Source of the DNA: Ruminiclostridium herbifermentans
Lineage (GTDB): Bacteria; Bacillota; Clostridia; Acetivibrionales; DSM-1351
Assembly (NCBI RefSeq): GCF_005473905.2
Contig: NZ_CP061336.1
Coordinates: 3,030,501 to 3,094,500, forward strand
DNA: 64,000 nt
Reading direction: 5' to 3'
Part shown: positions 14,625 to 61,146 of the stretch, piece by piece
Layout: each line of letters begins with the position of its first letter
How positions within the stretch are numbered: position 1 is the stretch's first letter
Notes under the pieces: generated by a model
Database searches by the model: none
Told to the model about the DNA's origin: nothing
The model's input: the letters and a program-made list of their open reading frames with translations, nothing else
Translations under genes and position numbers: made by a program

Positions 14625-14651
14625 TATAATCTCCTCCAAAATTTTTGTAAT

Positions 14652-14765
14652 AAAAAAACCTTACTGATTTTGGCGCAGTAAGGTTGGGTTTATCCAATTA
14701 TAAGCTTATAGTACGTTCCCAAATATAACCCTTACTAGCCTCTCTGGACTAATTTAAAAGTTTTT
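14652..14765 (-). promoter_or_regulatory. PyrR-binding pyrimidine attenuator before the uracil permease
   Basis: The minus-strand leader contains AGTCCAGAGAGGCT (14750-14737), a match to the PyrR RNA-binding loop consensus ARUCCNGNGAGGYU. It is followed by a terminator hairpin: AACCTTACTG pairs with CAGTAAGGTT (14685-14657), then TTTTTTT (14658-14652). The segment AGTAAGGGTTA just after the PyrR loop can pair with the terminator's 5' arm and act as antiterminator. Known mechanism: PyrR bound to UMP stabilises the anti-antiterminator and causes termination. Confidence 0.88.
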
Positions 14766-14916: not shown

Positions 14917-16029
14917 TTAACTTTTCCTTTTATTTTCATAAGCACTTAAAATTAATGAATAAATTTTAGAAGCAGAATCAAGCATACGGTTTTTTGTTGC
15001 ATTTGTTGCCATTTTGCTCAATAAATTTTCGTTTGAAATCAAATTACAAATTTGTGTATATAGAGCAGCCGCATTTAATTCATTCTCCAATATAACAACT
15101 GCCCCTCCGTCCCTCTCCAATGAGCGCGCATTATGCTCCTGATGGTTTGCCGTAACATATGGTGAAGGAATCAGAATTGATGGTATTCCCATTGTCTGGA
15201 GTTCACTGATTGTAATAGCTCCTGCCCTGCAAACCATCAAATCACTTGCTGCATATACTTTATCAACGTCATAGATATAAGGTACTACCTTAACCAAGCT
15301 TTTGTACTTTTCATCTATTTTTATGCTAGAATTAATTGTTTCAAATTGCTGTTCACCTGTTGAAAATATTATATTAAATTCACCTTTAAAGTAGTTGTTG
15401 AGCATTTCTGCAACTGTCTCATTTATCTTTCTCGCACCCCTACTGCCACCCATTACAACTATTAAAGGTTTACCCTTAACTGCATCAAGCTTAGACTTAG
15501 CATCAGCCTTATTTTTATTTAATAACTCCTGCCTAACTGGATTGCCTGTATGTACTAATTTTGCAGTCTGTTTGAAGTATTTCTCAGAATCCTTAAAGCT
15601 TATTGCCACATAATCCACATAACGAGCAAGAATTCTGTTTGTCACGCCTGGGAATGCATTTGATTCGTGAATCAAGGTAGGAATACCCTTTTTAGCTGCA
15701 ACATATAAAACAGGCCCGCAGACATAACCTCCCGTGCCTATCACAACATCAGGTTTTATTCTTTTTATTAGCTTAGAAGCCTCAAAAAAACTCTGAATAA
15801 GCTCCTTTACAGCAACTACAGTATCAAATGATATTTTTCTTTTAAAACCCCTGACAGTTATAGTCTCAAGCTTGTATCCTTCTCTGGGAACTAGCTTTGT
15901 CTCCAATCCCTTTTGTGTTCCAACAAAAGTTATTTCTGAATGGGGTTGCTGCTCTCTTATATACTTCGCAATAGCCAGTCCCGGATTTATATGCCCTCCG
16001 GTTCCCCCTCCTGCAATTAAAACTTTCAA
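14917..16029 (-). CDS. murG: UDP-N-acetylglucosamine--N-acetylmuramyl-(pentapeptide) pyrophosphoryl-undecaprenol GlcNAc transferase
   Basis: A 370-residue GT28 enzyme that adds GlcNAc to lipid I to make lipid II on the inner face of the membrane. The N-terminal loop GGGTGGHINPG and the UDP-GlcNAc site region (VVMGGSRGARKIN, CRAGAITISELQTMGIPSILIP, NHQEHNA) are intact. The start is TTG 16029 (LKVLIAGGGTGGH), which has GAGGTGATA 3-9 nt upstream and lies 10 nt after ftsW; the longer frame back to 16095 would overlap ftsW. It is the last gene of the murE-murF-mraY-ftsW-murG run. The usual next genes (murC, murB, ftsQ, ftsA, ftsZ) do not follow. Confidence 0.96.
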   Translation of the reverse strand: MKVLIAGGGTGGHINPGLAIAKYIREQQPHSEITFVGTQKGLETKLVPREGYKLETITVRGFKRKISFDTVVAVKELIQSFFEASKLIKRIKPDVVIGTGGYVCGPVLYVAAKKGIPTLIHESNAFPGVTNRILARYVDYVAISFKDSEKYFKQTAKLVHTGNPVRQELLNKNKADAKSKLDAVKGKPLIVVMGGSRGARKINETVAEMLNNYFKGEFNIIFSTGEQQFETINSSIKIDEKYKSLVKVVPYIYDVDKVYAASDLMVCRAGAITISELQTMGIPSILIPSPYVTANHQEHNARSLERDGGAVVILENELNAAALYTQICNLISNENLLSKMATNATKNRMLDSASKIYSLILSAYENKRKS

Positions 16030-24436: not shown

Positions 24437-25160
24437 TCTTTTGTTTTTTAATAACTTTCATCTTTCAAGTCAATTGCAATAAAACCTTGCTATTTCTGCA
24501 AACCTCTCACGTGCTTTATACGTTGATTTGCGAAAATATAATTGACTTTGTACTTCTACTTGCTCTTATTCTTTTGCTTACTTCAATACATTTGTCCTTT
24601 GTACGCCTTAATAACTTTCATCTTTTGTGCTGTTGCTTCTTTAATCTTTTGTTTTCTTGCTTTTTTCTTTTGTGTTGTTACTTCTTTCATCTTTTGTTTA
24701 CTTACTTTTGTCTTTTGTGTTCTTGCTTACTTTCATCTTTTGTTTACTTACTTGCTTTTGTCTTTTGTGTTCTTGCTTACTTTCATCTTTTGTTTACTTA
24801 CTTGCTTTTGTCTTTTGTGTTCTTGCTTGCTTTCATCTTTTGTTTACTTAATTTTTTCTTTTGTGTCTTACTTTTTCGTCTTTTGTTTACTTACTTGCTT
24901 TATCTTTTGTGTTCTTGCTTTTTTCATCTTTTGTTTAGCTACTTTTGTCTTTTGTATTTTTTACCTGCCTTCATCTTTGGCTTACTTACTTGTTTTTGTC
25001 TTTTGTGTTCTTGCTTTTTCATCTTTTGTTTAGTTACTTTTTGTCTTTTGTGTTCTTGCTTACTTTCATCTTTTGTTTACTTACTCATTTTATCTTTTGT
25101 GTTCTTTTCTTGCTTTCATCTTTTGTGTTCTTACTTCTTTTTTCTTTTGTATGATTGCTC
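24437..25160. repeat. pyrimidine-rich tandem repeat, 50-bp period, about 700 bp
   Basis: The plus strand carries about two dozen copies of TCTTTTGT, alternating in two contexts (CATCTTTTGTTTACTTAC and GTCTTTTGTGTTCTTGC). These combine to a unit of 50 bp that is exact around 24731, 24781 and 24831 and more degenerate to either side. The strand transcribed with the mraZ operon is correspondingly purine-rich (AAAAGATGAAAG, AAGAACACAAAAGAC). Stop codons occur in all minus frames. Plus-strand frames here are shadows made of Phe, Leu and Cys. The rest of 24229-25188 shows nothing else. It lies inside a predicted transcript between rsmH and ftsL. Confidence 0.85.
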
Positions 25161-28172: not shown

Positions 28173-29240
28173 TTATTCATCGTTTTCATTCTTCTGATTT
28201 TCAATAGGTTGATCAATAACTTCATTATCATCAGAAACTATATTTTTCTCCAAATCATTATCAACCTCATTATGCTCATTTCCAAATAAACTACTGGTCT
28301 TTTTTTCGGCTTCTAGTTTTTCCTCTTCCTCAATTTCTTTGAGTATACCAGCATATACGCTTTTTCCCGTATATTCTAGTTCAAGACTTTCATTGTTTAG
28401 CTTTATTCTTTTATAAACAATATAAATACCAAATGCTATTACAAGTACTACTGACAAGAACTGTGATACTCTCATATTCCCAAGCATTAAGCTATCTGTC
28501 CTAAGTCCTTCAATAAATGCTCTTCCAAGAGAATATGTTATAAAGTAAAAACAAAAAACCTCACCATCAAACTTCTTCTTCCTTCTCATCCACATCAAGA
28601 ACACAAAAATAGCCAAATCTAAAATTGATTCATATAAAAAGGTAGGATGAACAGGCAAATCAGGATTTACTGTAATTCCATGCAATTGCTGTATTGCATC
28701 CATATTGTTCTGTAAATAAGCTTTTGTGACAGAACTTTTCATTCCCCATGGCAGTGATGTATTAGTACCAAAAGCCTCTTGATTGAAGAAATTTCCCCAA
28801 CGTCCTATTGCTTGTCCAAGAGGAACATATGGAATTGCAAAATCAAAAAATTTAAAGGTAGGTATTTTTTTGTATCGTGCTACAAAGTAGGCTGTAATAA
28901 CTGCACCAATTATGCCGCCATATATAGCAAGTCCTCCATTTCTAATATTGAAAATTTCTAGTAAATTTGAACTATAATCTTCCCACCTAAATATAACATA
29001 ATATAATCGCGCAAAAATTATTGATATAGGTGCTGCAAACAGCATCAAATCAATTACTGTATCGGGAACCAAATCAAATTTCTTTGAATCTTTTATAGCC
29101 CAAATTACACACACACACATAGCCAAAGCTATAATAATCCCATACCAATATATTGACTTATTAAAGATTCTAAAAGCCTCACTTGAAATATTAAATTCTA
29201 AATTCATATTTGGAAAACTTACAAGAATGCTCTCTTTCAT
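28173..29240 (-). CDS. lgt: prolipoprotein diacylglyceryl transferase with long acidic C-terminal tail
   Basis: A 355-residue membrane enzyme that transfers diacylglycerol from phosphatidylglycerol to the lipobox cysteine of prelipoproteins. Family motifs GGLAIYGGIIGA and QAIGRWGNFFNQEAFG (with the essential Arg) are present, with about seven membrane helices. Residues after about 275 form a hydrophilic, Glu/Asp/Asn-rich tail of some 80 residues; most Lgt proteins stop near 260-290. I start at ATG 29240, because GGGAGG lies 6 nt upstream. That ribosome binding site is the half-copy of the A repeat seen before ribF, rseP and cdsA. Confidence 0.93.
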   Translation of the reverse strand: MKESILVSFPNMNLEFNISSEAFRIFNKSIYWYGIIIALAMCVCVIWAIKDSKKFDLVPDTVIDLMLFAAPISIIFARLYYVIFRWEDYSSNLLEIFNIRNGGLAIYGGIIGAVITAYFVARYKKIPTFKFFDFAIPYVPLGQAIGRWGNFFNQEAFGTNTSLPWGMKSSVTKAYLQNNMDAIQQLHGITVNPDLPVHPTFLYESILDLAIFVFLMWMRRKKKFDGEVFCFYFITYSLGRAFIEGLRTDSLMLGNMRVSQFLSVVLVIAFGIYIVYKRIKLNNESLELEYTGKSVYAGILKEIEEEEKLEAEKKTSSLFGNEHNEVDNDLEKNIVSDDNEVIDQPIENQKNENDE

Positions 29241-29242
29241 TA

Positions 29243-29471
29243 CTAACCTCCCACACCCCATTCAGGTATAAAACTATAGTTAAACTAGAATACATAATAC
29301 TAGCGCAGCTGACTACCAAAACAATTGAAAACTCAGCAAGTTCGCACTAAATTATGTTTTCGGGCTAGTCTCAAACCTTATCTTAACTCTTCAATTATTG
29401 ATTGAAAAGCCGCTTGCAGGTCTTCTCTGCCCGAAAACGCACCATGTTTGCACTGAATTATGTTTTCGAGC
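29243..29471. repeat. degenerate A/B repeat tract between the M16 gene and lgt
   Basis: A half A module (TAACCTCCCACACCCCATT, 29243 onward) supplies the lgt ribosome binding site but lacks the anti-SD arm. A full B inverted repeat lies at 29429-29471 (GCCCGAAAAC and GTTTTCGAGC with GCACCATGTTTGCAC between) and includes the stop codon of the M16 gene. A second partial B copy (TTCGCACTAAATTATG) is at about 29341-29365. Confidence 0.65.
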
Positions 29472-30747
29472 TTTTTACAACAGACAAAGCCATTTTTTCA
29501 ATATCAAAATGCTTATAAAATACATCTGTTATATAATCAAAGCTTATTGTATCATAAACATTAAAATAATCAAACATTGTTACACCTTTAAAATATAAGC
29601 TTATGAATGTTCGAGATATACTCTCAACAGAATTAAACTGTCTTAAGAACCTGCCCTTTGCTGCCTTTTGTAGTCTTTCAAACACATTTAGTTCAAGGCC
29701 ATTATCCTGTAAGCGTCTTATTTCTTTAACCAATAAATCTTTTACTGCCTCAGGATTAACAGACTCCCCACCTAACATAGAATAAGCATAGCTGCTCTCT
29801 AACGAAAAATCCGTCTCAAAGGTAGAATTTATTAATCCTTTATCATAAAGGTTGGAATATAATTCTGAACTTTTACCAATAATCATTGATAATAGCAACT
29901 TTATTGCCACAGTGTATTTCAGTATTTCTGTTCCCTGAAGATTAAAATTGTTATCCTTAAAGCCAATATAAAACAATGGTGTAGGAACAGGCATTATTTG
30001 TTCTACATATTTTTTATTTAAACTTTCGCTTTCATCAGGAAAAATTCTCTTTATCTCGGAAACTTTTTTTGTAGACTGAATGTTCTTTTCTATTTGCTCA
30101 AATACTTGATTATGATCTACATCTCCTACTACTGTTACTACCATATTTGACGGGTGATAAAACGTCTCGTAGCATTTATATAATGTTTCTTTAGTAATTT
30201 TACTTATGCTTTCAATAGAACCTGCAATATCCAGCTTCACTGGGTGCTTTTCATATAAAGCTTCTAATAGATTGAATGAAACCCTCCAACCAGGATTATC
30301 GCGATACATATTTATTTCCTGTCCAATTATACCCTTTTCTCTCTCAACGCTTTCTTCTGTAATATAAGGATTTTGTACAAAATTCAAAAGTAAATCAAAA
30401 TTTTCTTTGAACAAATCGGTGCAAGAAAAAAGATATACAGTTTGATTAAAGCTTGTATATGCATTTGGTCTTGAACCTAAAGCAGCAAATTTATCCATAA
30501 CACTGCCATCTTTTTGTTCAAAAAGCTTATGCTCCAAAAAATGAGCAATTCCATCAGGCACTCTAGTTGTATCCTTATCACCTGGAATAATAAACTCATT
30601 GTCTACTGAACCGTATTTTGTTGAGAACGTAGCATATTTTTTACTATAACCTTTTTTGGGAATCACAAGGCACTTTAATCCGCTGCTATGTTCATATTTA
30701 TATAATTTTTCATCATAATTGTTATACTCAATCGTTTCAAATTTCAT
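29458..30747 (-). CDS. M16 family zinc peptidase (YmfH-like)
   Basis: A 429-residue pitrilysin/insulinase-type peptidase. The inverted zinc motif HFLEH occurs near residue 70 in GIAHFLEHKLFEQ, followed about 75 residues on by the third-ligand region EKGIIGQEINMYRDNP, so it is probably catalytic. The C-terminal half is the second M16 domain. With the next upstream gene it forms the usual active/inactive pair (YmfF-YmfH in Bacillus, which annotation pipelines link to EF-P modification; the substrate is unproven). I start at ATG 30747 after GGGAGG, again supplied by an A-repeat half. Its last codons (SSKT, stop) lie in a B repeat. Confidence 0.9.
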   Translation of the reverse strand: MKFETIEYNNYDEKLYKYEHSSGLKCLVIPKKGYSKKYATFSTKYGSVDNEFIIPGDKDTTRVPDGIAHFLEHKLFEQKDGSVMDKFAALGSRPNAYTSFNQTVYLFSCTDLFKENFDLLLNFVQNPYITEESVEREKGIIGQEINMYRDNPGWRVSFNLLEALYEKHPVKLDIAGSIESISKITKETLYKCYETFYHPSNMVVTVVGDVDHNQVFEQIEKNIQSTKKVSEIKRIFPDESESLNKKYVEQIMPVPTPLFYIGFKDNNFNLQGTEILKYTVAIKLLLSMIIGKSSELYSNLYDKGLINSTFETDFSLESSYAYSMLGGESVNPEAVKDLLVKEIRRLQDNGLELNVFERLQKAAKGRFLRQFNSVESISRTFISLYFKGVTMFDYFNVYDTISFDYITDVFYKHFDIEKMALSVVKSSKT

Positions 30748-30751
30748 AAAA

Positions 30752-30876
30752 ACCTCCCACGCCCCATTGGGCATAAAATTTTGTAAAGTAATGGTGAATA
30801 CAACTTAGCACCTTTTTGCTATACCACCCACACTAACTCAAAAATGCACCATGTTCATCCTGAGTTATTTTTCGAG
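30752..30876. repeat. degenerate A/B repeat tract between the two M16 genes
   Basis: ACCTCCCACGCCCC near 30752 is the SD half of the A module and provides the ribosome binding site of the downstream M16 gene. A B-like inverted repeat, ACTCAAAAATGCACC to TTTTTCGAGC (30836-30876), directly abuts the stop codon of the upstream M16 gene. The matching anti-SD arm is not present. Confidence 0.6.
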
Positions 30877-43134: not shown

Positions 43135-44070
43135 TTATGTTCCTATACCAAGATATTCTTTAGCTTGACACATGTCCTTGGATATTTGCTGCATGAGCTG
43201 TTCAACACTCTCAAATTTCCTTTCATCTCGAATCTTTTTTAAAAAGAATACTTCTATCTTTTTTCCATAAATATCTTGATTAAAGTCAATTATATGAGTC
43301 TCAACATTTTTTTGCTTACAGTCTTCAAAAGTTGGATTAAATCCTACATTTGTCATGCTGTTATAGAATTTGCCGTCAAGCAATGTTTTTGTTATATATA
43401 CACCATTAGCTGGTAATACCAAAAATCTTTCAGGATTTATATTGGCTGTAGGATAACCAATAGTATTTCCAATTCTTCTGCCGCTTACTACCTCCGCAGT
43501 AATTGAATAATTTCTTCCTAAAAGTTTATAAGCTGTTTCAAGATCACCGTTTATAACTAATTCTCTTATTCTTGTACTGCTGATAATTTCATTATCACAG
43601 GTAATGGGAGATATAACTATAACTCTAAAACCATATTTTTTGCCCAATTCCTTCAAAAATTCAACATTCCCGTCACCATGATAACCAAATTTGTAGTCAT
43701 AGCCAACTACAGCCAATTTTATATGGAGCTTATCAATTAAAATTTGCTTTACAAATTCCTCAGGTGAAAGTCTTGAAAAATTCTCATTAAACTCATCAAA
43801 ATACAAATAATCCAAATTTATTTCACTAAGTAAATCTATTTTCTTCTGTTCAGTTAACAATAAAGGCGTAATAAGCTTCTTTCTAAGAATATTTTCTGGG
43901 TGCTTAGTAAAATTATAAACTACGGAAGCTAAGCCGTTTAATTGCGTTTCACGAATTAATGTATTTATAAGAGCCATATGACCTATATGCAGTCCATCAA
44001 AATTGCCAAGTCCTACACCTGTATTACAATTAAAGTACTTATCAATACTATTAGAATAAATTACCTTCAT
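43135..44070 (-). CDS. ribF: bifunctional riboflavin kinase/FAD synthetase
   Basis: A 311-residue cytoplasmic enzyme making FMN and then FAD. The adenylyltransferase half has GLGNFDGLHIGHMALI (nucleotidyl HxGH motif) and STRIRELVINGDLETAYKLLGR; the kinase half has GRRIGNTIGYPTANI and NVGFNPTFE. Its ATG at 44070 follows GGGAGGTTAGT, the 3' arm of the A-repeat hairpin, so translation initiation depends on the repeat array upstream. It directly precedes hypF. Confidence 0.96.
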   Translation of the reverse strand: MKVIYSNSIDKYFNCNTGVGLGNFDGLHIGHMALINTLIRETQLNGLASVVYNFTKHPENILRKKLITPLLLTEQKKIDLLSEINLDYLYFDEFNENFSRLSPEEFVKQILIDKLHIKLAVVGYDYKFGYHGDGNVEFLKELGKKYGFRVIVISPITCDNEIISSTRIRELVINGDLETAYKLLGRNYSITAEVVSGRRIGNTIGYPTANINPERFLVLPANGVYITKTLLDGKFYNSMTNVGFNPTFEDCKQKNVETHIIDFNQDIYGKKIEVFFLKKIRDERKFESVEQLMQQISKDMCQAKEYLGIGT

Positions 44071-44626
44071 ACTAACCTCCCACGCCCCATTTAAGCATAC
44101 AATCTGGTACAGTTCTCGTGGAGGTACGCAACATATTTCTTAGGTACCATCCACACTTCTTAATGCTAACCTCCCACGCCCCATTTAAGCATACAATCTG
44201 GTACAGTTCTCGTGGAGGTACGCAACATATTTCTTAGGTACCATCCACACTTCTTAATGCTAACCTCCCACGCCCCATTTAAGCATACAATCTGGTAAAG
44301 TTCTCGTGGAGGTACGCAACATGTTTCTTACATACCTTCCAGTAATACAAAAACCTCTTGTGGTATTTGTCGCTCGAAAATGCACTATGTTTGCACTGAT
44401 TTTGTTTTCGAGCTGCTAACCTCCCACGCCCCATTTAAGCATACAATCTAGTACAGTTCTCGTGGAGGTACGCAACATGTTTCTTACATACCTTCCAGTA
44501 ATACAAAAACCTCTTGTGGTATTTGTCGCTCGAAAAAGCACTATGTTTGCACTGATTTTGTTTTCGAGCTGCTAACCTCCCACGCCCCATTTAAGCATAC
44601 AATCTAGTACAGTTCTCGTGGACGAG
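44071..44626 (-). repeat. array of five A hairpin repeats with two B repeats, leader of ribF
   Basis: A units begin (ACCTCCC side) at 44072, 44166, 44260, 44416 and 44572. Periods are 94, 94, 156 and 156 bp; the long units contain an extra B inverted repeat (44372-44413 and 44528-44569: GCTCGAAAA with TTTTCGAGC). On the transcribed strand each complete A unit has ACCTCCACG, a loop of about 32 nt, then CGTGGGAGGT. The last is the Shine-Dalgarno sequence of ribF (44084-44075). The fifth unit abuts the truB stop codon and lacks the full anti-SD arm. A 20-codon frame (ATG 44134 to TAG 44072) spans the first unit and ends GVGG-stop one nucleotide before the ribF ATG. Confidence 0.9.
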
Positions 44627-47673: not shown

Positions 47674-50600
47674 CTATCTTTTTACTTCCTCCATTATGAA
47701 TGCTTCAATTACATCGCCTTCTTTTATATCGTTGAATTTCTCAATAGAAACACCACATTCATAACCTTGAGTAACTTCCTTAACATCATCTTTAAATCTC
47801 TTAAGGGATCCAAGCTTACCTTCATAAATTACTATACCATCTCTTACAACCCTAACTTCAGAATTTCTCTGAACCTTACCATCTGTGACATAAGCACCAC
47901 CAATTGTTCCAACATTTGAAACCTTAAATACCTGTCTGATTTCAATATGTCCAAGTACAACTTCCTTGTAAGTAGGTTCTAGCAATCCATTCATTGCAGA
48001 TTGAACATCCTCAATAGCTTTGTATATTATACTATATAATCTTATATCTACTTCTGCAGCTTTAGCGGCCTCAGTTACATTTATACCAGGTCTTACATTA
48101 AATCCGATTATAATAGCATTTGAAACTTGAGCCAAAGTAACGTCAGACTCTGTTATAGCACCTACAGCATAATGAACTACATTTACTCTTACCTCATCAT
48201 TGCTCAACTTCATAAGAGAAGACTTCACAGCTTCAAGTGAACCTTGAACATCTGCTTTAATAACCAAATTTAAATCCTTAACCTTTCCTTCTTTAATCTG
48301 ATTATAAAGTTCTTCAAGACTAACCTTTGCACTCTTTTTGTACTGCTGTTCCTTTTGCTTATATTTTCTCTTTTCAACTAAGTGTTTAGCAACCTTTTCA
48401 TCGGTAACCGCATAGAATATTTCTCCAGCATCAGGAACCTCATTCATACCTAAAACTTCAACAGGCATTGAAGGTCCAGCACTCTTAATAGCAGTACCCT
48501 TATCATTTGTCATAGCTTTGATTCTACCAAAAGCTGAACCAGCAATGATTGAATCTCCTGCTTTCAAAGTACCTCTCTGAACAAGCATTGTTGCAACAGG
48601 ACCTCTCTCTTTATCAAGCTTAGCTTCAATAATAGTACCTTTTGCCTGTCTATCCGGATTAGCTTTTAATTCCAACATATCCGCTACTAACAATACCATC
48701 TCTAGTAATTGATCTATGTTTTCTCTTTTCTTTGCAGAAACAGGAACCATAATAGCATCTCCGCCCCATTCTTCTGCAACAATTCCATGCTCAGTAAGTT
48801 CTTGCTTAACTCTGTCTGGATTTGCACCAGGCTTATCAATCTTATTAATTGCAACAATAATAGATACATTCGCTGCTTTAGCATGATTAATAGCTTCTAT
48901 TGTCTGTGGCATTACACCATCATCTGCTGCAACAACTAATATTGCAATATCTGTTACCTGAGCTCCTCTAGCACGCATTGCTGTAAATGCCTCATGGCCA
49001 GGAGTATCTAGGAACGTAATACGTCTATCCTTTGCCTTAACCATATAAGCACCTATATGCTGAGTAATTCCACCAGCCTCACTATCTATTACATGAGTAC
49101 TTCTAATTGCATCAAGTAAAGAAGTCTTTCCATGGTCAACGTGTCCCATAACAACTACAACTGGAGGTCTTGGTACTAATTTTGATTCATCCTCTTCCTC
49201 AATATCATCAAAGAGTATATCTTCTTCGCTAATCTGAACTGCTTTCTCTGTTTTTACACCATATTCTTCAGCAATAATAGTTGCAGTATCAAAATCTACA
49301 TCATTATTAACAGTTGCCATAACTCCAAAAGACATCAGCTTCTTTATAATTTCAGTTGAAGTCTTTTTAAGAGCTTCAGCTAATTCTTTTACTGTAAGTG
49401 TCTCTGGTATAGTTATTGAAGTCAAAACTGCTTTTGGAGGAATATACTTTGTTTGTGCAGCTTTATCAACCTTCTTACTTTTTGGAACTTTCTTTTTCTT
49501 TGAATCATCATTATAAAACTCATTAAAAATATACTCTTCTGAAAGAATCTCTGAAACACCTTTCTTTTCAATAACAATCTTTTGAGGTTTCATCCTATTA
49601 TGCTTGTTTTGAATTACACTGCTTTTTGGAGTTTCCTTTTTCTTATTTTCATCTCTTTTTGCAATCTTATCAAAATCCTTACTTTGGAATTCTCTTCTGG
49701 CTTCATTCCTCTGTGAATCAAATTGTTCTTGAGCTACAGCTACATCAGGCTTTGGTATATCCAATCCTTGCGATTTAAACTGCCCTTGTGGTCTGTCAGT
49801 TCTCTGTCCACTATACTGGCCCTGTGGTCTATCTGTTCTCTGTCCACTATACTGGCCTTGTGGTCTATCTGTTCTCTGTCCACTGTACTGGCCTTGTGGT
49901 CTGTCTGTCTTCTGTCCACTGTACTGGCCCTGTGGTCTGTCTGTTCTCTGTCCACTGTACTGGCCCTGTGGTCTGTCTGTTCTCTGTCCACTGTACTGGC
50001 CCTGTGGTCTGTCTGTTCTCTGTCCACTATACTGGCCCTGTGGTCTGTCTGTTCTCTGTCCACTATACTGGCCCTGTGGTCTGTCTGTCTTCTGTCCACT
50101 GTACTGGCCCTGTGGTCTGTCTGTTTTTTGTCCGCTATTATTCTGACCCTGTGGTCTGTCTGTTCTCTGTCCACTATACTGACCCTGTGGTCTGTCTGTT
50201 TTTTGACCATTATTGTTCTGGCCTTGTGGTTTGTCTGTTTTTTGTATGCTACTATTCTGACCCTGTGGTTTATCTGCCTTCTGTCCATTATTATTCTGAC
50301 TATTTGGCTTATCTGACCGTTGCATAGTAGCATTTTGCTCTTGAGAAATATTATCTTCTGATACTTTAGTATCAACTGGTGCTTCCTCTGGTTTTTTTAT
50401 TTCTTTTTCTTTATTTGCTTCTATATTTTCTTGGGTTAACACTGGTGCAGACTCATCCTTTTCATTTTTTATGCTTTCTGCATTTGCATGAGCAATATCC
50501 TTAGTATTTGACTTAGCTGTATCAATTTCCTCATTACTTTTTACTACCGTTGATTCCATTTGAATAGTGTTTTCTGCCACAGTTTTTCCCTCTTTATTAA

Positions 50601-55309: not shown

Positions 55310-56602
55310 TTATATCCGTCTCAAAATATCATTAAATGTAACATAAATCATCAATGCAATTAACAATACGAAGCCTACCATTGTAATCATGGCTTCTTTT
55401 TCTGGGTTTAAAGGCTTTCTCCTTATTTTTTCTATTAGTAACAGTAATAGTTTGCTTCCATCTAAAGCAGGGAATGGTATCAAATTTACTAAACCCAAGT
55501 TAATACTTATCATAGCAGATATTGATAGTAAACTATACACTGTTTCTTTTATTGAAGGAGTATCCTGAACAACATCACTTATAAGTGTAGTTATTCCAAC
55601 AGGTCCGCTTAATTCACTCATAGGAACTATTTGTGTAATAAGCCAGCCTATTGAATAATATATTGACCTTGATGTTGAAATAGAGTAATCAACTGATGCC
55701 TTAAGTGTATTAATAAAGCCACCCTTTGAATATTCAAACTCAAGTCCAATAGCTTTCCATTCAGCAGTTTTTCTAGCCACTGGTTTTACTGGCTTTAGTT
55801 CCTGAACTTTTCCTTCTCTATCTACTGTTATGGTTATTTCTTCTTTTCCAAGTTCATCTACAAGCTTTGAAATATCACGCCTTGTATTTATTTCCATTCC
55901 ATTAATCTTAATTATTCTGTCTCCCTTTTTAAGACCAGCCTCTTCTGCAGGAGAATTATCAGTAACTTGTGCAACAAGAGTGGAATCAACCCCATCAAAG
56001 CTTTGGTAATCTTTAGGAGTAAAGCCAAGCATGTAGCCGTCTTGCTCTCTATTTGGAGTTAAGGTAATATTATGAGTTTCACCATTTCTCTCAAACTGTA
56101 AATCTACACTTTCATTTTTTAAAGGATAAGCAAATATTTCTAAATCAGCAGGGAGAAAAACTGTCTTTCCATTATATTTTTCAAGAGTATCACCGACCTT
56201 AATACCTTTTTGTTCTGCTACTGAACCAGGTAATACAGTCTTAACCTGTGTTGTGTTATATCCAGTTTGTGCCATTAATATAAATGCAAAGATAAGAGCT
56301 ATAAGTATATTCATAATAGGCCCAGCTGCAATGATAGCTGACCTAACGCCTACTGGCTTTTTGTTATAAGCTCTTTCATCATCAGACTCTTCTTCCTCAC
56401 CCTCCATTTTCACATAACCGCCTAAAGGTATTAGCCTTAATGAATAAGTTGTTTCTCCTTTTTGAAAGCTAAAAAGCTTTGGACCCATAAACAATGAAAA
56501 CTCATTTACTTTTACCTTAAAAGCTTTAGCTACAAGAAAATGCCCTAGTTCATGTATTATTATCAAAAAACTTAAAACCAATATAGCCAGTAAAATACCC
56601 AT
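55310..56602 (-). CDS. rseP: RIP metalloprotease RseP (site-2 protease family)
   Basis: A 430-residue intramembrane zinc protease. The zinc motif HELGH is at about residues 17-21 in the first membrane helix, one PDZ domain occupies the middle (TDNSPAEEAGLKKGDRIIKING), and the second active-site motif is NLIPFPALDGSKLLLLLIE. Such enzymes cleave anti-sigma factors and leftover signal peptides (RseP, RasP). The true start is ATG 56602; the frame is open 6 codons further because it runs through the A-repeat ribosome binding site GGGAGGTTAAT. Confidence 0.95.
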   Translation of the reverse strand: MGILLAILVLSFLIIIHELGHFLVAKAFKVKVNEFSLFMGPKLFSFQKGETTYSLRLIPLGGYVKMEGEEEESDDERAYNKKPVGVRSAIIAAGPIMNILIALIFAFILMAQTGYNTTQVKTVLPGSVAEQKGIKVGDTLEKYNGKTVFLPADLEIFAYPLKNESVDLQFERNGETHNITLTPNREQDGYMLGFTPKDYQSFDGVDSTLVAQVTDNSPAEEAGLKKGDRIIKINGMEINTRRDISKLVDELGKEEITITVDREGKVQELKPVKPVARKTAEWKAIGLEFEYSKGGFINTLKASVDYSISTSRSIYYSIGWLITQIVPMSELSGPVGITTLISDVVQDTPSIKETVYSLLSISAMISINLGLVNLIPFPALDGSKLLLLLIEKIRRKPLNPEKEAMITMVGFVLLIALMIYVTFNDILRRI

Positions 56603-56860
56603 ATTAACCTCCCACGCCAACTTCAGGCGAAAATTTTAGTGTTTCTATCGTGGAGGTACGCAGAAAGTATATTATATTGCACATACTTCTTATCATGCTA
56701 ACCTCCCACGCCAACTTTAGGCGAAAAATTTTAGTGTTTCTATCGTGGAGGTACGCACAAAGTTTTGCCATACCTCAAAACTGCAAAAAACACTTGTGTT
56801 TTTTAACTCGAAAATGCACTATGTTTGCACTAATCTTATTTTCGAGTTTTTGAAGCTATA
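56603..56860 (-). repeat. two A hairpin repeats plus one B repeat, leader of rseP
   Basis: A units begin at 56604 and 56698. The hairpin next to rseP pairs ACCTCCACG (56657-56649) with CGTGGGAGGT (56616-56607), which is the rseP Shine-Dalgarno sequence. A B inverted repeat (56806-56847: ACTCGAAAAT with ATTTTCGAGT) comes first in the transcript after dxr. AAAAAACAC-TT-GTGTTTTTT (about 56785-56804) makes a further small hairpin beside B. Confidence 0.9.
56604..56696 (-). CDS. candidate 30-codon upstream ORF coupled to rseP
   Basis: ATG 56696 sits 5 nt after GGGAGG of the preceding A unit, an ideal initiation site. The frame runs through the anti-SD arm (codons for Leu-Arg-Thr-Ser-Thr) and ends in SPEVGVGG-TAA; the stop is separated from the rseP ATG by one T. 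The equivalent frames before cdsA (59184-59267) and ribF (44072-44134) also end GVGG-stop one base before the gene. In other units the first codon is ATT. The peptide has no known function; a coupling role is inference. Confidence 0.4.
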   Translation of the reverse strand: MIRSMCNIIYFLRTSTIETLKFSPEVGVGG

Positions 56861-58360: not shown

Positions 58361-59182
58361 TTAAGCTAGCTGTAAAACATAATATACCACAGGCGCTACA
58401 AATAAAATGCTGTCAAACCTATCCAGCACACCACCATGTCCAGGCATAATTTTCCCATAATCCTTAATGTTGACAAATCTCTTTATTGCCGATGCCGACC
58501 AATCACCAATTTGTGAAATCAATCCACAACACAGTCCTAAAATTCCTAAAACAAAATATGATATTTCTAAACTAAAATAACTTCTTACAATAACTCCAAA
58601 CACCAACATTAGCGCCATGCATCCAAATATTCCCCCAATTGCACCTGCCAACGTCTTTTTAGGGCTTATTTCAGGGATAATTTTTCTTTTTCCAAAGAGA
58701 CGTCCAAATGTATATGCCATAGTATCAGTACCCCAAGCACCAATAAATATTAGCCAAATTAAACAATATCCATATTCCATGTTTCTGATTAAAATAACAA
58801 AACTTAATAGAAAAGGCACATAAGCTATTCCAAAAGCTGTTATACAAACATCTATAATATTGTAACTCTTATTTTTGAAAACAATAAATGCCATACTCAA
58901 AAAAATAATTATAATTGCTGAAATCCCTGTTAATGTTGGAATATCAACTGCTATCCATCCTGTATCCTTAATACCCAAAATTAATAGTGGAATAACAGAT
59001 AAATAACCAACTATTTTAATTGGATTTATATTTTTCAAATTTGATAAAGAATTATAGAATTCATAAAGTCCAATTGCAGCAATTAAACTTACTGCTATTC
59101 CAAATGTTATTGAACCCAAGTACAATACGACAATAAGTAAAATAAGACCCACTACCGCACTAATTACTCTAGTTTTAAGCAT
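58361..59182 (-). CDS. cdsA: phosphatidate cytidylyltransferase
   Basis: A 273-residue membrane enzyme with about eight helices that makes CDP-diacylglycerol from phosphatidic acid and CTP. The C-terminal family signature SQIGDWSASAIKR, followed by KDYGKIMPGHGGVLDRFDS, is intact. The start is ATG 59182, directly after the SD arm of an A-repeat hairpin; the six upstream in-frame codons belong to the repeat. Confidence 0.96.
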   Translation of the reverse strand: MLKTRVISAVVGLILLIVVLYLGSITFGIAVSLIAAIGLYEFYNSLSNLKNINPIKIVGYLSVIPLLILGIKDTGWIAVDIPTLTGISAIIIIFLSMAFIVFKNKSYNIIDVCITAFGIAYVPFLLSFVILIRNMEYGYCLIWLIFIGAWGTDTMAYTFGRLFGKRKIIPEISPKKTLAGAIGGIFGCMALMLVFGVIVRSYFSLEISYFVLGILGLCCGLISQIGDWSASAIKRFVNIKDYGKIMPGHGGVLDRFDSILFVAPVVYYVLQLA

Positions 59183-59965
59183 ACTAACCTCCCACGCCAA
59201 CTTCAGGCGAAAATTTTAGTGTTACTATCGTGGAGGTTACGCACATAGTATATTTTTTATTGCACATACTTTTTATAATGCTAACCTCCCACGCCAACTT
59301 TGGGCATAATTTATAGTGTTTCTATCGTGGAGGTACGCACATAGTATATTTTTTATTGCACATACTTTTTATAATGCTAACCTCCCACGCCAACTTCAGG
59401 CGAAAATTTTAGTGTTACTATCGTGGAGGTTACGCACATAGTATATTTTTTATTGCACATACTTTTTATAATGCTAACCTCCCACGCCAACTTTGGGCAT
59501 AATTTATAGTGTTACTATCGTGGAGGTACGCACAAAGTATTGCTATACCTCATCACTGCAAAAAACACTTGTGTTTTTAACTCGAAAATGCACTATGTTT
59601 GCACTAATCTTATTTTCGAGTTTTTATAATGCTAACCTCCACGCCTACTTTAGGCATAAATTATAGTGTTTCTATCGTGGAGGTACGCACATAGTATATT
59701 TTTTATTGCACATACTTTTTATAATGCTAACCTCCCACGCCAACTTTAGGCGAAAATTTTAGTGTTACTATCGTGGAGGTTACGCACATAGTATATTTTT
59801 TATTGCACATACTTTTTATAATGCTAACCTCCCACGCCTACTTTGGGCATAAATTATAGTGTTACTATCGTGGAGGTACGCACAAAGTATTGCTATACCT
59901 CATCACTGCAAAAAACACTTGTGTTTTTTAACTCGAAAATGCACTATGTTTGCACTAACTTTTTA
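59183..59965 (-). repeat. array of seven A hairpin repeats with two B copies, leader of cdsA
   Basis: A units begin at 59184, 59281, 59377, 59474, 59632, 59727 and 59824 (spacings 97, 96, 97, 158, 95, 97). Two subtypes mostly alternate: one with GGCGAAAATTTTAGTG and GGAGGTTACGC, one with GGCATAATTTATAGTG or similar and GGAGGTACGC. Each can pair ACCTCCACG with CGTGGGAGGT (one bulged G; perfect at 59632). The subtype next to cdsA keeps an open frame through the anti-SD to GVGG-TAG; the other is interrupted. A full B repeat lies at 59580-59621 and a truncated one at 59931-59957. Confidence 0.92.
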
Positions 59966-59993
59966 ACCACAATTTGAAAAAAACACTATATAC

Positions 59994-60749: not shown

Positions 60750-61146
60750 TCTAACCTCCACGCCTAGTTACATATGAATCAGAACCTTTAGTTGAATCAA
60801 AACCTTTAATTGATTCAAAACCCAAAAAATACAGCCTTGTTTAGTTCTTTAGAGCATACTGATTTTTCTTACTTCACAAGGGTATTTCAACGGACATCTT
60901 TATGGTAACTACTGCCCTTTTGACAAAACTCTTTGTGTTTTCTTCGCATACTCAAAGGATACAGGCTCCCTTATTAATCTCAAATATAGAATTTTTCATT
61001 TGAAATTTGCTCAGAATTATAAATATGTTTGCAATAACATAATTATATATCACATACAGTTATTTTGAAAATAAATCCTTGATAAGTTTAACACAGATAA
61101 ACTATTTATGCGAGATAGTTTATTTATATTTAAAACAACCCCTCGT
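60750..61146. other. uppS leader region
   Basis: About 400 nt. Next to uppS is the A-repeat SD half, then an 18-bp unit present about 2.5 times (GAATCAAAACCTTTAATT-like, 60776-60823). A 9-bp perfect hairpin ATAAACTAT-ATAGTTTAT lies at 61098-61124. No open frame with a ribosome binding site is seen. Confidence 0.45.

Follow-up and report, generated by a model that had tools for sequence, protein, structure and literature searches.

A lineage-specific, BOX-like mosaic repeat that probably inserts at translation starts and supplies their Shine-Dalgarno sequences in two Ruminiclostridium species

Introduction

The junction between truB and ribF in Ruminiclostridium herbifermentans raises the question of how a gene comes to take its Shine-Dalgarno (SD) sequence from the end of a tandem hairpin array, and whether such an array regulates this gene, belongs to it alone, or has arrived there from elsewhere. 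The original prediction described the array as a ribF leader in which each hairpin hides a ribosome binding site. The analysis presented here follows the repeat from the window (the whole 64,000-nucleotide stretch under study) to the genome, the genus and beyond, and leads us to a lineage-specific mosaic repeat, similar to BOX, that most likely inserts at translation starts and supplies an SD by its 3' end. Small interspersed repeats are usually viewed as intergenic passengers, and the repeat described here ends in what would be a functional SD, set with near single-base precision ahead of the start codons of housekeeping genes.

The array between truB and ribF

Between truB and ribF lie five copies of a hairpin of ~54 nt, in register on the transcribed (minus) strand, located at 44065, 44159, 44253, 44409 and 44565, with spacings of 94, 94, 156 and 156 nt. 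Two additional hairpins (A and B) are found inside each 156-nt period, and the tandemly repeated hairpin itself is referred to as module C:

43135..44070, minus strand: ribF, start ATG at 44070, orthologs in 10 of 10 congeners
44073..44126, minus strand: C module 1, with anti-SD arm, small hairpin and the ribF SD GTGGGAGGT; 45.4 bits
44167..44220, minus strand: C module 2, tandem copy; 37.1 bits
44261..44314, minus strand: C module 3, tandem copy; 38.9 bits
44347..44371 (approximate ends), minus strand: B, terminator-like hairpin and T run, copy 1, read from the sequence
44372..44413, minus strand: A hairpin, copy 1, GCTCGAAAA..TTTTCGAGC
44417..44470, minus strand: C module 4, tandem copy; 34.6 bits
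44503..44527 (approximate ends), minus strand: B, terminator-like hairpin, copy 2, read from the sequence
44528..44569, minus strand: A hairpin, copy 2
44573..44626, minus strand: C module 5, beside the stop codon of truB, with a divergent 5' arm (CTCGTCCACG); 34.6 bits

On the minus strand the ribF-adjoining unit reads ACCTCCACG-(32 nt)-CGTGGGAGGT-TAGT-ATG, this last copy ending in GGCGTGGGAGGTTAGT-ATG at ribF, so that its 3' arm is the ribF SD, as had been proposed. Five units had also been described as carrying the 5' arm about 32 nt before the 3' arm; all five copies are present, but the exact 5' arm occurs in only four of them, and the truB-adjoining fifth has CTCGTCCACG in its place. The repeat is real, with 16 matches in the window to ACCTCCCACGCC at up to two mismatches (the match at 15727 being no copy) against a shuffle mean of 0.75, and 0 of 100 shuffles reaching 16. 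It is not specific to ribF, where the original prediction had placed it, but belongs to a genome-wide family; that prediction had neither set hairpins A and B apart nor recognised the mosaic repeat, probably brought in by insertion, of which the unit is the 3' module. In the ribF leader of R. sufflavum (locus L121) truB and ribF are separated by ~160 nt, and the long hairpin found there, CAATTACTG..CAGTAATTG, is another one, so that this junction appears to have been invaded by other palindromes too.

Within the window the same repeat also leads rseP, in two copies, and cdsA, in seven, and appears in single and more degenerate form at lgt and at the gene of an M16 peptidase:

29231..29470, minus strand: lgt leader, two A-like hairpins and one C core (hairpin version ACC..GGT)
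30742..30876, minus strand: M16 peptidase leader, A and one C core, the latter lacking a good anti-SD arm
56599..56847, minus strand: rseP leader, in the order A, B, linker, C, linker, C, supplying the rseP SD; start ATG 56602
59179..59973, minus strand: cdsA leader, seven C modules and two A-B blocks (the first A partial), with the cdsA SD; start ATG 59182
60750..60764, minus strand: uppS leader, remnant GGCGTGGAGGTTAGA, 5' half of the hairpin missing

These leaders bear on annotation, the mechanical reading-frame list placing the starts of both cdsA and rseP inside the element (TTG 59200 and 56620, respectively). The window holds three further features. A 36-nt tandem repeat in 14 copies lies inside infB (49779-50291) and encodes a repeated stretch in the N-terminal region of IF2, a stretch similar to it being seen by eye in a G007 block; an AT-rich 25/50-nt tandem array with ~23 copies of the 25-nt unit occupies 24607-25150; and a PyrR-binding RNA leader is found at 14649-14764 (Rfam RF00515, 60.6 bits).

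A genome-wide family at start codons

A search blind to starts, using a 12-base pattern with up to one mismatch and no start codon inside (60 distinct complement sites examined), identified 60 sites in the genome. At 41 of these an ATG-initiated frame of at least 50 codons begins 4-7 nt after GGAGG, the distance being exactly 5 nt at 33; such a frame at 4-7 nt is found at 7.0% of random positions (1396/20000) and at 21/121 other GGAGG sites. A genome search of this kind, suggested together with the original prediction, thus revealed a strong relation of the repeat to start codons. By eye, 17 of the remaining 19 sites belong to chains in which they lie upstream of a final, gene-proximal copy; the last two are L057, which leads no gene, and L062, a chance match.

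The conserved core of 44 copies can be approximated as AAnTTTTnTGCC-nAAA-GGGC-GTGGGAGGTTAnTATG, namely an AU-rich tract, a small hairpin, the SD and the start. A covariance model of this core (R1) finds 115 copies in this genome at E<=1; it contains the start codon and was therefore left out of the start-codon count. Gene-proximal copies, counted with a lenient pattern at the examined loci and including a few doubtful short frames, number 59 here and 66 in R. sufflavum. The best reading of these numbers is that the repeat has moved into the translation starts of dozens of genes in each of the two species, supplying their SDs. One array (L010, G000:2496659-2499675) is of the C type with mostly 93-nt units, some of which contain in-register frames running from one ATG to the next, so that it could be read there as a repeat peptide, MKELGWKKERYYVPPR...

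Mosaic architecture

Module C forms the 3' end portion of a composite repeat built from A (GCTCGAAAA..TTTTCGAGC), B (AAAAACCACAAGTGGTTTTT, terminator-like), a linker and C, full copies of which mostly span ~135-175 nt. In 29 composite copies from both species, found with a pattern that itself required A before C, A lies upstream of C in constant order and orientation, some copies having no clear B. Matches to the 5' arm in this genome are followed by the SD arm in 27 of 29 cases, the other two being chance matches. Array units of 91-97 nt correspond to linker and C, to which the 156-nt ribF units add A and B.

A-B arrays also occur without a recognisable C, and the modules therefore combine as in BOX elements. 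Locus L065 (G000:3463000-3466500) holds 4.4 copies of a 172-nt unit with A and B and no SD module, upstream of what by eye looks like trmB. At L252 (G000:4528800-4532200) four 160-nt A-B units precede a gene that by eye resembles rlmH, and every unit closes with a duplicate of the SD and initial codons belonging to that gene (GGAGGTATAGCTTGAAAA). As judged from this locus, A-B arrays can apparently amplify a host start region as well.

An array unit could also be a small gene in its own right, its SD and ATG or TTG opening a frame of 25-35 codons that extends to the next SD, with termination and reinitiation between frames, as in TAA-T-ATG at rseP. Such frames are visible by eye in many units, several units of R. 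sufflavum start with TTGAAAGA after the SD (by eye), and in the rseP unit the frame begins at an ATG and terminates a single base ahead of the ATG of rseP. Nevertheless, as unit length ranges between 91 and 97 nt the frame across the hairpin differs between arrays, and several units contain stops or have no start, so that we consider this explanation highly improbable.

The core hairpin and the anti-SD arm

Two pairings can be drawn in module C, a small hairpin within the core and a longer-range pairing of the anti-SD arm with the SD, and they differ in how they have been kept. When 140 copies are aligned to R1, by a fit to model and structure that makes the counts lean towards the structure, the six-pair core hairpin is formed in 86.5% of cells, and cells changed on both sides number 55 vs 22.7 in shuffles, a value reached by 0 of 500 shuffles. 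Sliding the hairpin partners abolishes this covariation signal. The first, ungapped alignment of 38 copies showed weaker covariation (12 of 500 shuffles reach its score), and RNAalifold predicted no pairs on the fitted alignment, for which reason a specified structure was used to test the helix. At 16 orthologous genes of the two species identity rises from 30% at positions -45 to -26, through 50% for the AU tract, to 57% for the hairpin, and the expected stem is found in both copies at 12 of the 16; at fapA, L042, L051 and lgt the copy of this genome was assigned a different or displaced stem by the script. The hairpin of the C core, with its co-varying pairs, is retained.

The anti-SD arm lies within the stretch of 30% identity between orthologous copies, is weak in the profile, and by eye has degenerated or is missing in many of the copies that stand singly. 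Compensatory changes in the arms across relatives, expected under the original prediction, were not found: there is no arm-to-arm covariation, SD arms permuted among copies pairing as well in 113/300 and 51/300 permutations, an outcome listed with the original prediction as one that would count against it. An early impression of compensatory anti-SD arms at L042 and L059 failed this permutation test and was abandoned.

These observations bear on the possibility of a cis-regulatory RNA family (a riboswitch, thermometer or protein-binding leader), in which the anti-SD would hide the SD until a signal arrives and tandem copies would sharpen the response. Covariation of the core hairpin agrees with such a role, as does folding of the entire ribF leader, which is better than in 100 of 100 shuffles (z -3.4). 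Upstream complementarity to the SD arm also exceeds that of shuffles in both species (-10.3 vs -7.3 and -7.8 vs -6.3 kcal/mol), and the probability of an unpaired SD is clearly reduced in R. sufflavum (0.205 vs 0.342 with shuffled upstream sequence, lower in 55/66) and weakly so here (0.328 vs 0.384, lower in 37/59, two-sided p 0.07). On the other hand, the folding of single units surpasses that of shuffles by a modest margin (z between -0.6 and -1.7 in five window cases, and -3.1 in one from R. sufflavum), and the arms neither co-vary nor escape the poorly conserved upstream stretch. By eye the target genes are functionally mixed and share no common pathway, which argues against a metabolite switch. 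No Rfam match to the element was obtained, either for the window at gathering threshold, where only PyrR was recognised, or for 12 element loci at E<=1, and in the class search described below only two of 391 genomes had a match. We therefore regard a regulatory RNA family as distinctly improbable.

Thus, the proposal of a repeat-borne hairpin that supplies the SD stands, while the notion that it hides the ribosome binding site stands in part: the SD is indeed more paired than with shuffled upstream sequence, but sequestration does not emerge as a conserved function and, if it occurs, is limited to young copies. We read the sequences as suggesting that young copies arrive with the anti-SD arm and then lose it.

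Distribution among related genomes

With R1 at E<=0.01 and up to 150 candidates scored per genome, so that counts are lower bounds, at least 77 copies are found in this genome and at least 88 in R. sufflavum DSM 19573, and of the other nine congeners eight have none and the ninth has one. A second model, R2, applied to the order at E<=0.001 with 108 candidates scored per genome, gave at least 61 and at least 100 copies in the two species, with matches in 4 of 58 genomes in all (1 and 2 copies in the others). In the class (E<=1e-4, with stricter filters and 16 candidates scored per genome, whereby weak single copies may be missed) matches occurred in 2 of 391 genomes. The module A pattern, at up to two mismatches, matches 51 sites here and 10 in R. 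sufflavum, the remaining 56 genomes of the order having 0. The two species are placed near each other and distant from other species in the part of the published work available to us (PMC10701907).

Two 40-nt cores that hardly differ in sequence, each with SD and ATG (L107 and L109), occur in G038, which belongs to a different family of the order. By eye they precede frames of only 15 and 8 codons, and they are possibly horizontal arrivals. A blastn search of plasmid and phage collections with one 288-base array stretch gave no match, and the core pattern had 0 matches in viral contigs. No description of the element was found in the literature, as covered by a search without preprints and with few subscription papers.

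Sixteen genes carry the element in both species, indicating that part of its spread is old. From this set a best-hit pair with 43% identity was removed, and lgt and the M16 gene were included manually. The probability of such sharing by chance is ~1e-11 for 14 genes shared among 59 and 66 with 3000 genes assumed, a rough figure because the gene-proximal counts rest on a lenient pattern and include doubtful frames.

Filled and empty sites

Presence and absence of the element at orthologous sites, with pairs judged by eye, hold between species, and gain can be told from loss at only part of the loci. In five congeners (G002, G005, G006, G007 and G009) truB and ribF are separated by ~20 nt that include a plain SD, and the gap is longer in G001 and G004. 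The element at rseP is absent in the three congeners compared for this leader (G002, G003 and G004); R. sufflavum, G002 and G004 have TGGAGGA as the SD there, at 5-6 nt. A reverse case is provided by iorB, where R. sufflavum has the element and this genome lacks it, and hisC was dropped as a third clean empty site because R. sufflavum has a rearranged partial copy there.

The cleanest empty site is that of a permease gene, which in R. sufflavum reads ..GTACAGGGAGGTTAGCTTGAT-ATG. Here it reads ..GTTCAGGGAGGTTAGCA, followed by an entire A-B-linker-C and then by GTGGGAGGTTAGT-ATG, which places the element downstream of the old SD and ahead of the start codon. At the left the old SD can still be recognised, its bases also coding for the end of the upstream protein, and the element brings a second GGGAGGTTAG, forming a 10-nt direct repeat with copies 181 nt apart that may be the element's own end. 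The SD at the right is spaced 5 nt from the start, compared with 10 nt in R. sufflavum, implying that a few bases were lost or changed. A clearly retained left host SD was seen at this one empty site, and not at rseP, the M16 peptidase gene or hisC. More generally, GGAGG occurs within 18 nt to the left of A in 10 of 29 composites vs 1.3% by chance, about eight of the ten being, by eye, earlier C modules and not host SDs.

Could the repeat instead be an inherited start motif that was never mobile and that selection shaped locally, gene by gene, its arrays having formed by slippage only? The 16 genes that carry it in both species and the better preservation of the core than of the upstream sequence would follow from such a history, and in G002, which lacks the element, the lgt leader already reads GTGGAGGTTATAA before ATG. 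Yet whole A-B-linker-C blocks and arrays stand between genes that nearly abut in congeners, the non-coding A and B recur in the same order at unrelated loci, and A is found without C (L065, L252). Evolution in place is accordingly improbable in our judgement.

A proposed mechanism of spread

The preferred explanation, which we hold to be probably correct, is that of the lineage-specific BOX-like mosaic repeat introduced above. Its modules keep one order and orientation, its SD stands 4-7 nt before starts, most congeners lack it, and orthologous sites are found empty. The element would be non-autonomous and moved by an enzyme, with its SD at the 3' end. A unit would land just 3' of an SD-like GGAGGTTA, between the SD and the start codon, and its terminal GTGGGAGGTTA would then replace the host SD, so that the gene survives; insertion at this position would be tolerated because the element restores the spacing. 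Every copy would bring a new target at its end, allowing a further copy to land behind it, and arrays would result. After insertion, the AU-rich tract would serve together with the small hairpin and the strong SD as the gene's ribosome landing site, and in young copies pairing of the anti-SD arm with the SD probably lowers translation until the arm decays.

No transposase could be linked to the element in the one family tested, PF01797, the distribution of which does not follow element load: 13 matches were found in the element-free G002, and 10 partial pieces in the draft genome of R. sufflavum, several of them at contig ends and perhaps representing broken intact copies. This mismatch speaks against a Y1 transposase as the mover, and by eye the sole full-length copy here looks like an ordinary IS.

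A bolder extension, which we think possible but doubtful, is that of a mobile element homing on SDs, in which the ACCUCC arm would act as a guide for single-strand integration, as the IS608 guide does for TTAC. A guide role of ACCTCC would explain the choice of target. Landing between SD and start with an SD of its own, such an element could enter essential operons in a survivable way; it would have rewritten dozens of starts in each of two species, and its hairpin and SD would by now be a shared, domesticated initiation module. Independently of such homing, a repeat that ends in a functional SD would illustrate how operons can tolerate selfish DNA and how the translation of many genes can be altered together. 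How the element finds starts, and whether a repeat-borne hairpin preceding the SD changes initiation, become accessible to experiment.

Comparison with known systems

SD-sequestering leaders such as ROSE-type thermometers and translational riboswitches have a 5' arm complementary to the SD at the 3' end of the leader. The element differs in being repeat-borne, in having no common target pathway and in having lost the arm in many copies, and the conserved, co-varying anti-SD/SD pairing of such leaders was not found in it.

Several traits recall the IS200/IS605 family, namely GGAGGTTA at the left flank of some copies, a hairpin, and an ACCTCC complementary to GGAGGT. In the accessible portion of the IS608 account, insertion occurs 3' of a short target that is kept at the left, a hairpin lies by the right cleavage site, and a guide pairs with the target (PMC5934647). 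According to the same portion the IS608 guide is directly 5' of the hairpin base and the two cleavage sites differ (TTAC vs TCAA), whereas the element's complement is ~20-30 nt upstream of its hairpin and both its flanks are GGAGGTTA (PMC5934647). ACCTCC pairs with GGAGGT in young copies and the arms do not co-vary; no matching Y1 enzyme was found with PF01797, and membership in this family is not claimed.

Resemblance is also seen to REP/BIME sequences, which, in the text of the source at hand, are likewise small palindromes with many intergenic copies, tandem mosaics and possible single-strand mobilisation (PMC8266576). As described there, REP carries a tetranucleotide, mostly GTAG, 5' of the hairpin and is associated with TnpA-REP transposases, while the element has GGAGGT 3' of its hairpin and, with PF01797 tested, no cognate transposase was found (PMC8266576).

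Pneumococcal BOX (boxA-boxB-boxC), of which the available part of the description counts 125 in the strain concerned, shares with the element a build of short modules that keep a fixed order, a tandem number that varies for one of these modules, and about a hundred copies (PMC3049150). By the same partial account both are abundant in one species, fewer in a sister species and almost absent in other relatives, and both are transcribed in leaders (PMC3049150). That part of the description does not mention a fixed distance to start codons, and at three loci it describes BOX-formed reading frames without good SDs, whereas the 3' module of the element carries the SD of the downstream gene (PMC3049150). 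In its hairpin mosaics of variable tandem number, its high copy number confined to one lineage and rare in close relatives, and its presence or absence at orthologous sites between species, the element fits among repeats of the BOX/BIME type.
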